From assembly GCA_027065695.1 (NCBI GenBank), contig JAMONP010000021.1, forward strand, positions 1 through 44,822: 44,822 bases of DNA, in the 5' to 3' direction. Both the position numbers and the translations under genes were made by a program. Each line of letters begins with the position of its first letter. Position 1 is the stretch's first letter. The notes beneath the pieces are model-generated. The model had not been told where the DNA came from and did not search any database. It saw only the letters and a program-made list of their open reading frames with translations. The DNA comes from Desulfuromonadales bacterium. Its GTDB lineage: Bacteria > Desulfobacterota > Desulfuromonadia > Desulfuromonadales > BM103. This document shows, one piece after another, positions 41,116 through 44,620 of this stretch.

Positions 41116-41901
41116 ATGATGTCTTTACTTGAAATTGATCCGATTATTTTTCAGATAGGACCATTGGCCATTCGCTGGTACGGTCTGATGTATCTATTTG
41201 GTTTCGGTGCGGCCTTCCTGTTGATCACGCACCTGTCACGCCTGCGCGATCTTGCTCTGACCAAAGATGGTGTCTCCGATCTGCTCTTTTATGGAGTTCT
41301 CGGTGTTGTCCTCGGCGGTCGTCTTGGCTACGTCCTCTTCTATAACCCGGCGCAATATTTTTCACATCCTCTGGAGATCTTTGCCGTCTGGCATGGAGGT
41401 ATGAGTTTTCATGGCGGATTACTCGGTGTTGTGGTTGCCGCGATGATATTTTGCTGGCACCGAAAGCTGCCGATGCTGTTAACCGGTGATATCCTGGTGA
41501 CTTCTGCAACAATCGGTCTTGGTCTTGGCAGGATCGGCAATTTCATCAATGGGGAGTTGTGGGGGCGGGTGACTGATCTGCCCTGGGGTGTGGTTTTCCC
41601 CGGTGGTGGCCCTCTACCGAGGCACCCCAGTCAGCTTTATGAGGCCGCTCTTGAAGGCCTTTTGTTATTTGTCATTCTTTACCTGCTGCATCGCCGTAAG
41701 GTTGTAGTAGGCGTGCCTTTTTTTAGCTTTTTTGTCGGTTATGGTCTGTTTCGTTTCCTGGTCGAATTTGTGCGTCAACCTGATGCCCATCTCGGTTTTC
41801 TCTGGGGAGGGGCAACTATGGGGCAACTGCTCTCTCTTCCGATGATTATCTTCGGGTTAGCAGGGTTCTTCTATCTTTATCGGCAGGGGAACTCACAGTG
41901 A
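41116..41901 (+). CDS. lgt: Prolipoprotein diacylglyceryl transferase
   Basis: Adds diacylglycerol to the lipobox Cys of prelipoproteins in the inner membrane; its substrates here include the RlpA-like and beta-helix lipoproteins. The 261-residue protein has about seven membrane segments. Motifs are IRWYGLMYLFGFG, GVVLGGRLGYVLFY, WHGGMSFHGGLLGV with the conserved His-Gly-Gly, and the Lgt signature GRIGNFINGELWGR followed by RHPSQLYEAALEG. The frame can open at TTG 41107, but ATG 41116 or 41119 is preferred. Its stop overlaps the GTG start of the HAD gene by four bases. Confidence 0.97.
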   Translation: MMSLLEIDPIIFQIGPLAIRWYGLMYLFGFGAAFLLITHLSRLRDLALTKDGVSDLLFYGVLGVVLGGRLGYVLFYNPAQYFSHPLEIFAVWHGGMSFHGGLLGVVVAAMIFCWHRKLPMLLTGDILVTSATIGLGLGRIGNFINGELWGRVTDLPWGVVFPGGGPLPRHPSQLYEAALEGLLLFVILYLLHRRKVVVGVPFFSFFVGYGLFRFLVEFVRQPDAHLGFLWGGATMGQLLSLPMIIFGLAGFFYLYRQGNSQ

Positions 41902-42524
41902 ATGGTATCCGTGGTATTGTTTTCGATTGTGACGGCGTGCTCTTTGAAAGTCACAAAGCCAACTTGGCTTATTACAATACTGTCCTGAATTACTTTGGTG
42001 AGCCACCGGTCGAAGAATCCGATCAAGCTAGAGCACATCTTTGCCATACTGCTGCCAGTACACATGTTTTTACTCAACTCCTGGGCGAGGAGCGCGTTCC
42101 GAAAGCACTTTCCTTCGCCGCAGAACTCGATTATCACCAGTTTATCCCTTATATGAAACCTGAGCCCGGCATGAAAAAAGCCTTGTCTCAGCTTGCCAAT
42201 TTCTTCCCTCTGGCAATTGCTACCAATCGCGGCGTCAGTATGCCGAGCATTCTTAAACATTTCGAACTGAGCGGTTTTTTTCAGACTGTTGTCACCAGTC
42301 ATGATGTCAAACATCCCAAACCTGCTCCGGATATGCTGCATGAAGCTGCCCGTCGGTTGCAATGTTCGACAAATGAACTTCTCTTTGTTGGTGATTCAGA
42401 GTTGGATCAGGCTGCAGCCCGATCCGCTGGAATGCCCTTCGCGGTGTATCGGGGTGATTTGCAGGCGGATGTGCAGATTGGACATCATAGGGAGTTGGTG
42501 GAGCTGTTTATCAAAGACTCATAA
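41898..42524 (+). CDS. HAD-superfamily hydrolase, phosphoglycolate-phosphatase-like
   Basis: The 208-residue cytoplasmic phosphatase has the four HAD motifs: I, GIVFDCDGVLFES with the nucleophile and acid/base Asp; II, IATNRGVS; III, KHPKPAPDM with the conserved Lys; IV, FVGDSELDQAAARSAG. A helical cap (about residues 20-85) suggests subfamily I, as in Gph or PgmB. Substrate is not determinable. It starts with GTG 41898 inside the end of lgt (GTGA overlap), so the two are translationally coupled. It converges on the SEC-C protein with eight bases between them. Confidence 0.9.
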   Translation: MNGIRGIVFDCDGVLFESHKANLAYYNTVLNYFGEPPVEESDQARAHLCHTAASTHVFTQLLGEERVPKALSFAAELDYHQFIPYMKPEPGMKKALSQLANFFPLAIATNRGVSMPSILKHFELSGFFQTVVTSHDVKHPKPAPDMLHEAARRLQCSTNELLFVGDSELDQAAARSAGMPFAVYRGDLQADVQIGHHRELVELFIKDS

Positions 42525-42532
42525 TCTCTTGA

Positions 42533-44620
42533 TTATGTCGAATGTTTCCGAATCCAGGTCTCCAGGTTTTTTCGGGGAATAATATCTTCTACAATCAGCT
42601 GCTGATCAGGGGTCTGACGCAAAATGAGGCGGTGCTGGATTCCCACACGAATACGTAAATAGCCTGGTAGTTGTTCCAGCACTATCGTTTGCTTGAGCAC
42701 AGATTCGTCGCGTGTACTGAAGCCTGTTGCCGCACGCAAGGCCTTGGTAACTACAGATTGAGGCAGGTTCTCAGCGCTTTTGCGGAATTTATTGCTGTAC
42801 TCAGGAATCTGAACCTTGTGTGGCAAGATGATGTTCGCTTCTGCGTCTTCGCTTTGAACCTCTGGTGGAATTGGGGGACGATTTTGCACCTTTTGTGCTG
42901 AGAGCTCTTGTCTGGCCTCCTGCAGTTGTTTACGCAAATCTTGCCGATCTGCCTGCTGCGACTTGATTTCATTTTTAAGGTTGCCGATCTTGTTTTTTAA
43001 CGTACTAATCTGGCCGCGGTCTTCAGTTGTGGTGCCAGTATGCTGACGTTGTGAGAGGTTCGGTGATGGTTGCACTTCTTGAGACAATTTGAACTGCTTA
43101 TTGGCGCTATTGGTTTTCAGTTCGCGCTCAAGAGTTTCCAGTTCGCGCTCCCTTGCTTGTAAACTTTTTAACGCCTCGGTACTTTCCCCCTGAACTTCGG
43201 AGAGCTGTTCCTTCAGGTCTTCTATTTTTTGATCTTTGTCAGCGTTCAGAATATCGCCATCGATTTTTTCATAGAGCCATTCTTGGTAGTCTTCTATCGG
43301 GTCTCCCCAGGGTTCGAGATCCAGATCGATGCGAGTTTTTTCGATGGCGTCAAAAAGGACGTCATTATCAATGACTCGTTCAGGTTCGGAGACTATACCT
43401 GCGCGACCGAAAATGATGCTCATGGCAGGAAGAATAGTGCCGAAGGCGAAGCTGAGTTCCATTAGAATATGGTCTGTGCTCAGTTCTCCTTCGGTTATGG
43501 CTTCTCTGCAAATTGCTTCTAGTTCGTCGTAGTTTGCTGTGGATTTTAATATAGCGTGATGGAGCTTGCTGGCGCTGTCATGATAAAGCTCTTTTTCCGG
43601 GATCAGCAAAGCCAGTTTGTCGGCCATAGTCAGGTTTGCTGCGCTAAGGGCCGAGTCAAATAGATCCTTCATTTCCTCAATGGCCTGGTCGCTTTTGCCA
43701 GGTCGCTGTCTGAGCTCTAATAACAATTCGTAAGTAAAGTCCAGAAAACCACTGTGTCGAACTCTTTTAATGGCTGTGTCGAGCTGTACGTCATTTAATG
43801 AGCCAGGCGAGAGTTTCTTCAGTTCTTTCAATGACATGACTTCGATACGTTTACTATCCTCGACTATCGAAGGAGTGGCATTGAGTTGGGTGCGGGTCAG
43901 ACCTTCATATCTTGAGGCATCCCTCAGCAACTCCTGATCCTTGCTATGACAGCATTTTTTATATTTCTTGCTACTACCACAATGGCAGGGCTCATTTCTG
44001 CCATGTTTAGCGATGGGACGGCGTACCGTGTAATCTCCACCTATGATAACTGCGGGTCGTTCCTTGGGCAACGCTCGCGTAATATCCATTTCGCTCATCC
44101 AGAGACTGCGACTCTCCTCAGTATTGTCTTTTTCAAGTATGGCGAGACTGCAGTGAATCAGGGCGTTGGCTCTGGGAGAGAAAATCTCTTTGGAGAGTTT
44201 CCAGAGAATTTTTTTAGCTGGCTGCTTCGGTTGGTCGAACTTGACAGTCAGTTCGGTTGCGAGCTGGGCGGCAGCAGCTTGCCGCTCCCAGGAAATATCA
44301 TCGGCGAGGGCTATCGTCAGGAGTGGCTCGATAGCTGTTGCATTCTGAAACTGGCAAGGGAAAAGGAAGTCTGTTATGTCTTCCAGAATTTTTAGCGTCG
44401 AGACCCATATTTGTGGCTCCAAAACAATTTTATTGTATGCCGCAACGTTGAGCAGGATACCAAGGCTTTTGCCCTCTTGTTTTTGGGTGAGCAGTGTCGC
44501 CAGGCTGTCGTAATGACCAGCTTTCATCTCACCCCATTCTTCAGCTAATCGTTGGATCTCTGGTCTGCAGCGGGTGGTTTTTTTTAGCTGCTCAAGCAGT
44601 GGTTCGATATTTGTGTTCAT
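42533..44620 (-). CDS. SEC-C zinc motif, coiled coil and RelE/ParE-like C-terminus fusion protein
   Basis: A 695-residue soluble protein with no signal peptide. Residues 1-195 are helical and HEAT-like. Residues 206-226 hold the SEC-C zinc motif NEPCHCGSSKKYKKCCH (C212, C214, C223, with C224 or H225), as at the C-terminus of SecA. Residues 240-445 are helical. Residues about 455-580 form a strong coiled coil (KIEDLKEQLSEVQ, LQARERELETLEREL, ISTLKNKIGNLKNEIKSQ). Residues about 603-695 look like a RelE/ParE toxin: EYSNKFRKSAENLPQSVVTKAL, then LEQLPGYLRIRVGIQHRLIL and IVEDIIPRKNLETWI, with R656, R658 and R664 in the family's basic positions. The typical terminal His/Tyr is absent. No separate antitoxin gene adjoins it in the window. 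The SEC-C and coiled coil are firm; the RelE-like assignment is by pattern only. Confidence 0.75.
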   Translation of the reverse strand: MNTNIEPLLEQLKKTTRCRPEIQRLAEEWGEMKAGHYDSLATLLTQKQEGKSLGILLNVAAYNKIVLEPQIWVSTLKILEDITDFLFPCQFQNATAIEPLLTIALADDISWERQAAAAQLATELTVKFDQPKQPAKKILWKLSKEIFSPRANALIHCSLAILEKDNTEESRSLWMSEMDITRALPKERPAVIIGGDYTVRRPIAKHGRNEPCHCGSSKKYKKCCHSKDQELLRDASRYEGLTRTQLNATPSIVEDSKRIEVMSLKELKKLSPGSLNDVQLDTAIKRVRHSGFLDFTYELLLELRQRPGKSDQAIEEMKDLFDSALSAANLTMADKLALLIPEKELYHDSASKLHHAILKSTANYDELEAICREAITEGELSTDHILMELSFAFGTILPAMSIIFGRAGIVSEPERVIDNDVLFDAIEKTRIDLDLEPWGDPIEDYQEWLYEKIDGDILNADKDQKIEDLKEQLSEVQGESTEALKSLQARERELETLERELKTNSANKQFKLSQEVQPSPNLSQRQHTGTTTEDRGQISTLKNKIGNLKNEIKSQQADRQDLRKQLQEARQELSAQKVQNRPPIPPEVQSEDAEANIILPHKVQIPEYSNKFRKSAENLPQSVVTKALRAATGFSTRDESVLKQTIVLEQLPGYLRIRVGIQHRLILRQTPDQQLIVEDIIPRKNLETWIRKHST

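Follow-up and report, generated by a model that had tools for sequence, protein, structure and literature searches.

A SEC-C motif protein with a C-terminal RelE/ParE-fold domain in a Desulfuromonadales bacterium and in Verrucomicrobiota

The gene and the parts of its product

The window, the 44,822-nucleotide stretch of a Desulfuromonadales contig analyzed here, carries close to one end a complete open reading frame on the minus strand (42533-44620, ATG start) coding for a 695-aa protein, P0001. Its first methionine aligns with the starts assumed for its relatives, one of which (L137) was given an internal ATG chosen within a 716-aa GTG frame. A chance or artefactual frame was considered and rejected because six full-length relatives keep the same order of parts and the whole-gene dN/dS between the relatives L133 and L183 is 0.18. 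The contig, and with it the window, ends 202 bp upstream of the gene, and a HAD-family gene (41898-42524) lies 8 bp from it on the other side; since the two genes are convergent, an operon with the HAD gene was ruled out. Scans for promoters and terminators gave signals at shuffle level. Ten genes of the window named through NCBIfam look like housekeeping genes, among them those for prephenate dehydratase, aroA, ispH, rpsA, sppA, an rluA-type synthase and lgt. The GC and GC3 values of the SEC-C/RelE gene fall within 1 sd of those of 26 other window ORFs (chosen by length), so its composition does not indicate a recent transfer. We divided the gene as follows.

42533..44620, minus strand: whole gene, 695-aa protein P0001 plus stop codon (six full-length relatives of 689-702 aa)
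44012..44620, minus strand: helical N-terminal part, residues 1-203, probably an alpha-solenoid (low-confidence AlphaFold2 helices)
43946..43999, minus strand: SEC-C (SecA-type) metal-binding motif, residues 208-225 (Pfam PF02810, E 2.7e-6, above its cut-off)
43256..43933, minus strand: second helical part, residues 230-455 (AlphaFold2 helices)
42884..43300, minus strand: coiled coil of long helices, interrupted at 515-531, residues 441-579 (AlphaFold2 and coil-type matches)
42536..42805, minus strand: RelE/ParE-fold domain, residues 606-695 (AlphaFold2, Foldseek, VIA and conservation)

Apart from the SEC-C motif, Pfam returned just coil-type and sub-threshold matches for P0001. The motif comprises Cys212, Cys214, Cys223 and Cys224 (CXCX8CC) followed by His225, and thus has the CXCX8C(C/H) form of SEC-C motifs described in the accessible part of PMC6620043. 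The front of the protein is probably made up of two helical-repeat parts around this motif. A full-length AlphaFold2 model, with a mean pLDDT of 46.3, has helices throughout the front parts, and its VIA matches to coiled-coil and helical-repeat structures (best Z 11.5) are within chance for such models. The profile of the N-terminal part weakly matched alphaRep and HEAT-like chains (best E 3e-4) and no Pfam family above its cut-off. In the second helical part, residues 261-320 reach a mean pLDDT of 76-80 per block of ten in the full-length model, and a profile of this part found no confident match in the PDB. Further along, the same model, poor as a whole, has two long helices (441-514 and 532-579) in a region where SMC and Rad50 models gave coil-type matches. 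The single frame of 695 residues, the SEC-C motif and the coiled coil of the original prediction are therefore all found at this locus.

The C-terminal domain and its conserved residues

The same prediction had read a RelE/ParE pattern in the C-terminal segment, and structural modeling agrees with it. An AlphaFold2 run on the last 96 residues, using an alignment with one relative, gave a best model of residues 600-695 with a mean pLDDT of 89.7 and a pTM of 0.81; its order, strand-helix-helix-strands-helix, includes the strand-helix-helix-three-strand core of the RelE/ParE fold. Three of the five domain-alone models have a pLDDT of 87-90 and two are poor (47.5 and 39.2), and the full-length model has low-confidence helices, without the RelE fold, over these residues. 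A Foldseek search of the PDB placed RelE of Methanococcus jannaschii (3bpq) first (E 9.7e-5), followed by YafQ, YoeB/ParE and others, with two matches in all at E <= 0.001. VIA comparisons gave Z scores of 10.4 with RelE (3bpq, 2khe), 10.0-10.4 with YafQ, 10.0-10.3 with YoeB-type proteins, 9.5 with ribosome-bound Cami1 and 9.0 with RelE on the 70S ribosome.

The link to RelE came from the fold, as domain queries of the PDB by sequence returned nothing other than designed repeat proteins and chance matches. Matches of the two-sequence profile A2 to armadillo and other designs (E down to 7e-6) build up from many weak, repeated matches and were taken as chance. The Pfam family ParE_like (PF24732; cut-off, 24.4 bits) matches all six domains scanned (L183 left out) at E up to 5, that of the relative L132 above the cut-off with 28.4 bits (24.2 for its whole protein), that of the window at 16.3-16.7 bits (12.5 for the whole protein) and those of four other relatives at 13.0-16.3 bits. 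This family is rare among relatives (1 of 58 genomes; controls, 0 of 14). No NCBIfam model matched the window's C-terminal domain, and no PADLOC model at E up to 1 matched it or its counterpart in the relative L033; among the PHROGs, the L033 domain weakly matched a RelE-like toxin family (E 0.028) and the window's domain an unnamed family (E 0.016). Two relatives' domains had weak matches, at best with E 0.0022 to TIGR01620 and with E 0.016 to DUF697, that were taken as chance. Neither outcome named beforehand as contrary to the RelE/ParE assignment, namely, a lack of any such match or homologues folding otherwise, was encountered.

With ParE_like as the best Pfam name, the domain might be thought to poison or bind DNA gyrase in the manner of ParE or to act as a sponge for RelB/ParD-type antitoxins. 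Such antitoxins are likely to be present in the window's genome, given that it has 10 PF05016 RelE/ParE matches at E <= 1e-5 and is in this sense rich in RelE/ParE-type toxins. However, the family profile scores RelE-type proteins above other PF05016 members. Over 29 PF05016 toxins (30 loci, less L166 with its internal stop), six classed as RelE-type by a fixed motif rank high (Mann-Whitney p 8e-4), and when a further two, picked by eye once the scores were known, are included, RelE-type proteins fill eight of the nine highest ranks (p 8e-5), a ranking that is a measure of similarity and no independent proof because the RelE label rests on the strand motif that drives the score. The loci also share no partner ORF, and we consider either role quite improbable.

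In P0001 and its six relatives, F612, A627, R656, R658, G660, R664, L665, P671, D679, I681, R683, L686, E687 and I690 of the domain are invariant. A six-domain profile aligned K52, K54 and R61 of Escherichia coli RelE with Arg656, Arg658 and Arg664, in a weak match (6.7 bits) that ends before R81; in the RelE-type toxin L160, the arginine of a GHR stretch aligns with Arg683 and the tyrosine with Glu687. Arginine occupies the positions of RelE K52, K54, R61 and R81 in all seven sequences. The arginines of such RxRxGxxR strands are common in RelE-type proteins and may have a structural role. The catalytic Tyr87 of RelE is absent from all seven, none of which has any tyrosine after Arg683; its place is taken by the invariant Glu687 or, going by the spacing from R81 of E. 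coli RelE, by Trp689, a position that is tryptophan in five of the seven. The original prediction had suggested that the usual terminal His/Tyr was lost, which holds for the tyrosine but not for a histidine near the C terminus, present in P0001 (His693) and in four of the six relatives.

Tyr87 is called critical for RelE catalysis in the part of PMC3507626 that was accessible, and a Tyr-to-His change abolished the toxicity and activity of a Streptomyces RelE, according to the accessible part of PMC4989188. Because this tyrosine is absent, we do not class P0001 as a RelE mRNA interferase, though it may act on ribosomes in a similar way. A tentative alternative is that its RelE-like domain binds without cutting, docking in the ribosomal A site or on another RNA or a protein partner, which would make P0001 a ribosome-associated sensor, a hibernation-like factor or a regulator without nuclease activity. 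The replacement of Tyr87 in every sequence, the retained basic face and the consistent occurrence as one long chain with no partner gene common to the loci all favor this view. Nevertheless, catalytic residues differ among RelE-family toxins, so that a missing tyrosine does not prove the loss of cleavage: YafQ uses His87 as its catalytic residue (a YafQ H87Q mutant is present in the PDB, among the fold matches), and an invariant glutamate beside four arginines could serve catalysis.

Relatives, conservation and surroundings

A pattern scan of one genome per species (84,980 species) confirmed five loci, one of them full-length (L033, 695 aa, from a Prosthecobacter MAG) and the other four matching over SEC-C alone. 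Profile searches, whose counts take in the centre genomes themselves, gave four near-full-length matches and four more restricted to SEC-C in 387 Verrucomicrobiota genomes, two near-full-length matches in 161 genomes of one order and two in 31 of another. In total, we recovered six full-length relatives, which are 689-702 aa long and belong without exception to Verrucomicrobiota; five of them (L183 lay outside the comparison) are 23-35% identical to P0001 in multiple alignments. The original prediction had called for a check that the fusion is conserved among homologues, and all six keep the parts in the same order. In a tree rooted for drawing only, the window's protein, on a long branch flagged by the program, and four Verrucomicrobiota proteins are split (100/100) from L132 and L033. 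A domain profile run against 288 Verrucomicrobiota genomes found, among the matches listed (the gene carriers G058 and G583 were not in these rows), two fusions, one 49-aa fragment and no stand-alone toxin of this RelE-like subfamily. About 20 kb downstream of the L132 gene there is a 110-bp copy of its 3' end (L171:11980-12089, G511:C2; 95.5% identical) that codes for the final strands and terminal helix of the RelE-like domain and is a partial duplication of that gene. SEC-C motifs are expected at the C terminus of proteins such as the 336-aa product of L122:1504-2514, which has its motif at the extreme N terminus.

Outside Verrucomicrobiota, the window's genome is the sole one with a full match in both the class sample (1 of 277; two SEC-C stretches also passed) and the phylum sample (1 of 345). 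Ten other species of the genus lack the gene; in the search that included them, 41 of 58 genomes matched, in every case except the window's genome over the SEC-C stretch. Eight sister species have the HAD gene, and none of the seven with at least 1 kb of sequence beyond it has the SEC-C/RelE gene there; five (L175, L177, L178, L180 and L181) have an RsbW-like kinase and STAS pair, named by eye, after the HAD gene, and two have other genes. These genome sets are samples that partly overlap between searches, and the absence counts are lower bounds in that part of the first-look candidates was scored in many genomes. On the basis of its absence from these samples and from the sister HAD loci, the gene is patchy in distribution and has probably moved.

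Mean pairwise identity over the seven sequences is highest in the SEC-C motif (77.1%; 16 of the 26 columns at residues 204-229 are invariant), followed by the RelE-like domain (45.8%), the middle part (35.0%), the N-terminal part (31.8%) and the coil (28.2%). For the closest pair, L133/L183, dN/dS is 0.016 in SEC-C, 0.10 in the RelE-like domain, 0.17 in both the middle and the N-terminal parts and 0.35 in the coil; in the two further pairs calculated, synonymous sites of the RelE part were saturated. The RelE-like domain is under selection, and a decayed toxin remnant was rejected as an explanation because SEC-C alone is better kept than this domain. We regard the layout, the predicted fold and its upkeep as solid.

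The exceptional conservation of SEC-C might instead point to a chaperone or Sec-linked quality-control factor like YecA (AscA), in which the metal motif and the solenoid would act with SecB or exported chains and the RelE fold would be a protein-binding module. This would leave the conserved basic residues of the RelE fold unexplained, and presence in a single genome of the phylum sample is odd for a housekeeping factor; we consider it unlikely.

The original prediction had dispensed with a separate antitoxin, and the surroundings of the gene concur. We compared 112 small ORFs (35-150 aa) lying up to 1 kb from any of the seven genes (202 bp upstream for the window; 829 bp for L134 and 920 bp for L133 on one side), and none resembled one from another locus at E 0.01. 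With no small ORF common to the loci, no conserved antitoxin was found, and the gene lacks the kept adjacent small antitoxin gene of type II toxin-antitoxin systems. At L133, the end of the SEC-C/RelE gene and the start of a same-strand MutM-like gene (by eye; L133:2589-3437) share 8 bp; next to the close relative of L133 in L184 there is no MutM-like gene, and the gene upstream is PLD-like.

PADLOC was applied to the neighbors of three of the six relatives, L184, L134 and L133, chosen after their ORF lists had been read (L132, L137 and L033 were left out), and its matches come without a base rate. DUF488 proteins matching part A of the candidate system PDC-M19 (PDC-M19A) are encoded at distances of 1.7 kb (L184) and 1.9 kb (L134), and in L133 a 111-aa frame 47 bp from the SEC-C/RelE gene matches the beginning of PDC-M19B; all three matches (L134:4970-5908, L184:12634-13512 and L133:5559-5894) are within 2 kb of the gene. 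The neighbors in L134 also include AbiEii-like, HTH and SMC/AAA genes. The window's protein and L033 themselves matched PADLOC models over SEC-C and coil-side stretches alone, with no whole-protein match to a known anti-phage system. No CRISPR genes were noticed among the ORFs read by eye around the six relatives or among ten proteins put to Pfam.

A phage or plasmid gene was also considered and set aside, as searches of plasmids and phages gave no full-length match. The window's protein found nothing in either at E 1e-3; the L133 query matched 42 plasmid records and 1 phage record, and the L132 query matched 153 plasmid records, none of these places covering 80% of the query, and the 10 plasmid rows listed for each query, like the single phage match, all overlap the SEC-C stretch or extend to it. 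The A1 scan of viral contigs took in the best 80 of 92 relatives; among 120 loci, matches outside SEC-C were confined to the window's own gene and the Prosthecobacter gene, bar two weak ones in the middle part (E 0.016 in a 96-aa frame and E 0.027 in an 85-aa frame). Domain profiles matched no viral contig.

Possible mode of action and known counterparts

We favor, at a probability of about 0.4, the view that P0001 is an effector directed at the ribosome, made as a single chain and needing no antitoxin, comparable to Cami1 but with a different control half; the version in which it binds without cutting is nearly as likely. Such an effector would act on translating ribosomes from a single gene, with no partner antitoxin. 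The helical-repeat and SEC-C part would be its docking or sensing half, and the coiled coil would join two chains or hold the RelE-like domain inactive before the front half is engaged. The domain would then enter the ribosomal A site through its conserved basic face and stop translation, either by occupying the site or by cleaving mRNA with an altered catalytic set, in which the invariant Glu687 is the candidate acid/base. We are more doubtful of a fuller version, in which this is a conserved, antitoxin-free family of the RelE branch. Ribosome docking by the SEC-C motif and solenoid, perhaps with sensing of iron, zinc or a phage event, would free the RelE-like domain to enter the A site, the Glu/Arg set would replace the tyrosine, and the outcome would be a one-gene switch that shuts off translation, possibly in defense.

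The effector view accords with the fold matches to RelE, YafQ, YoeB and Cami1, the fusion kept in seven sequences, the conservation of the domain above the N-terminal, middle and coil parts together with its low dN/dS, the agreement of Arg656, Arg658, Arg664 and Arg683 with basic positions of RelE and L160, the high rank of RelE-type members of PF05016 and the lack of a shared partner ORF. Against it stand the missing tyrosine, with the Streptomyces mutant as a warning, the possibly structural nature of the strand arginines, the unrelated matches in two relatives, the full-length model without the RelE fold, the two poor domain models and the short list of significant Foldseek matches. A further difficulty is geometric: the tunnel exit, the presumed site of the SecA motif, is on another face of the ribosome than the A site, so serving both would take the long coil of a single chain, or a dimer. 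As to ribosome contact, the accessible parts of PMC6620043 report that the SEC-C-type domain of SecA alone co-sediments with ribosomes and that crosslinks of the SecA tail point to uL23. This motif also serves SecB binding in SecA (accessible parts of PMC6620043 and PMC8076867), which makes ribosome targeting one option among several, and many SEC-C proteins have no known function according to the accessible part of PMC8076867.

Should the effector view hold, RelE domains would have become part of one-piece switches on more than one occasion, with a second layout, unrelated to that of Cami1, in distant bacteria and with an altered active site, and SEC-C proteins without a known role would gain a testable link to the ribosome. 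In the titles and abstract beginnings available to us, from literature mostly without subscription papers, no fusion of SEC-C with a RelE-like domain is described.

RelE-family toxins are usually regarded as small proteins restrained by a separate antitoxin. The P0001 domain resembles RelE, YafQ and YoeB in its fold (Z about 10) and basic residues; in contrast to them, it belongs to a 695-aa chain, lacks the catalytic tyrosine and has no antitoxin gene found with it. It shares with PF24732 the matches described above, from which it differs in scoring below the cut-off and in being fused to a long chain. With the C-terminal metal-binding domain of SecA, YecA (AscA) and YchJ, P0001 has the CXCX8C(C/H) motif in common, whereas its motif is internal, flanked by two helical parts, and the chain ends far from it in a RelE-like domain. 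A further counterpart is Cami1, a dimeric, cA4-activated CARF-RelE protein of type III CRISPR systems that cuts mRNA at the A site (accessible part of PMC11229360; PDB 8phb, 8phj) and provides a precedent for a sensor-fused RelE nuclease in which a same-chain sensor replaces a separate antitoxin. It likewise has its RelE-family domain in the C-terminal portion of a longer chain, and the two domains are alike in fold (Z 9.5 over 94 residues of 8phj; Foldseek TMq 0.72). Unlike Cami1, neither P0001 nor L033 matches CARF in Pfam at E up to 1, and P0001 has in its place the SEC-C motif, the helical parts and the coiled coil.
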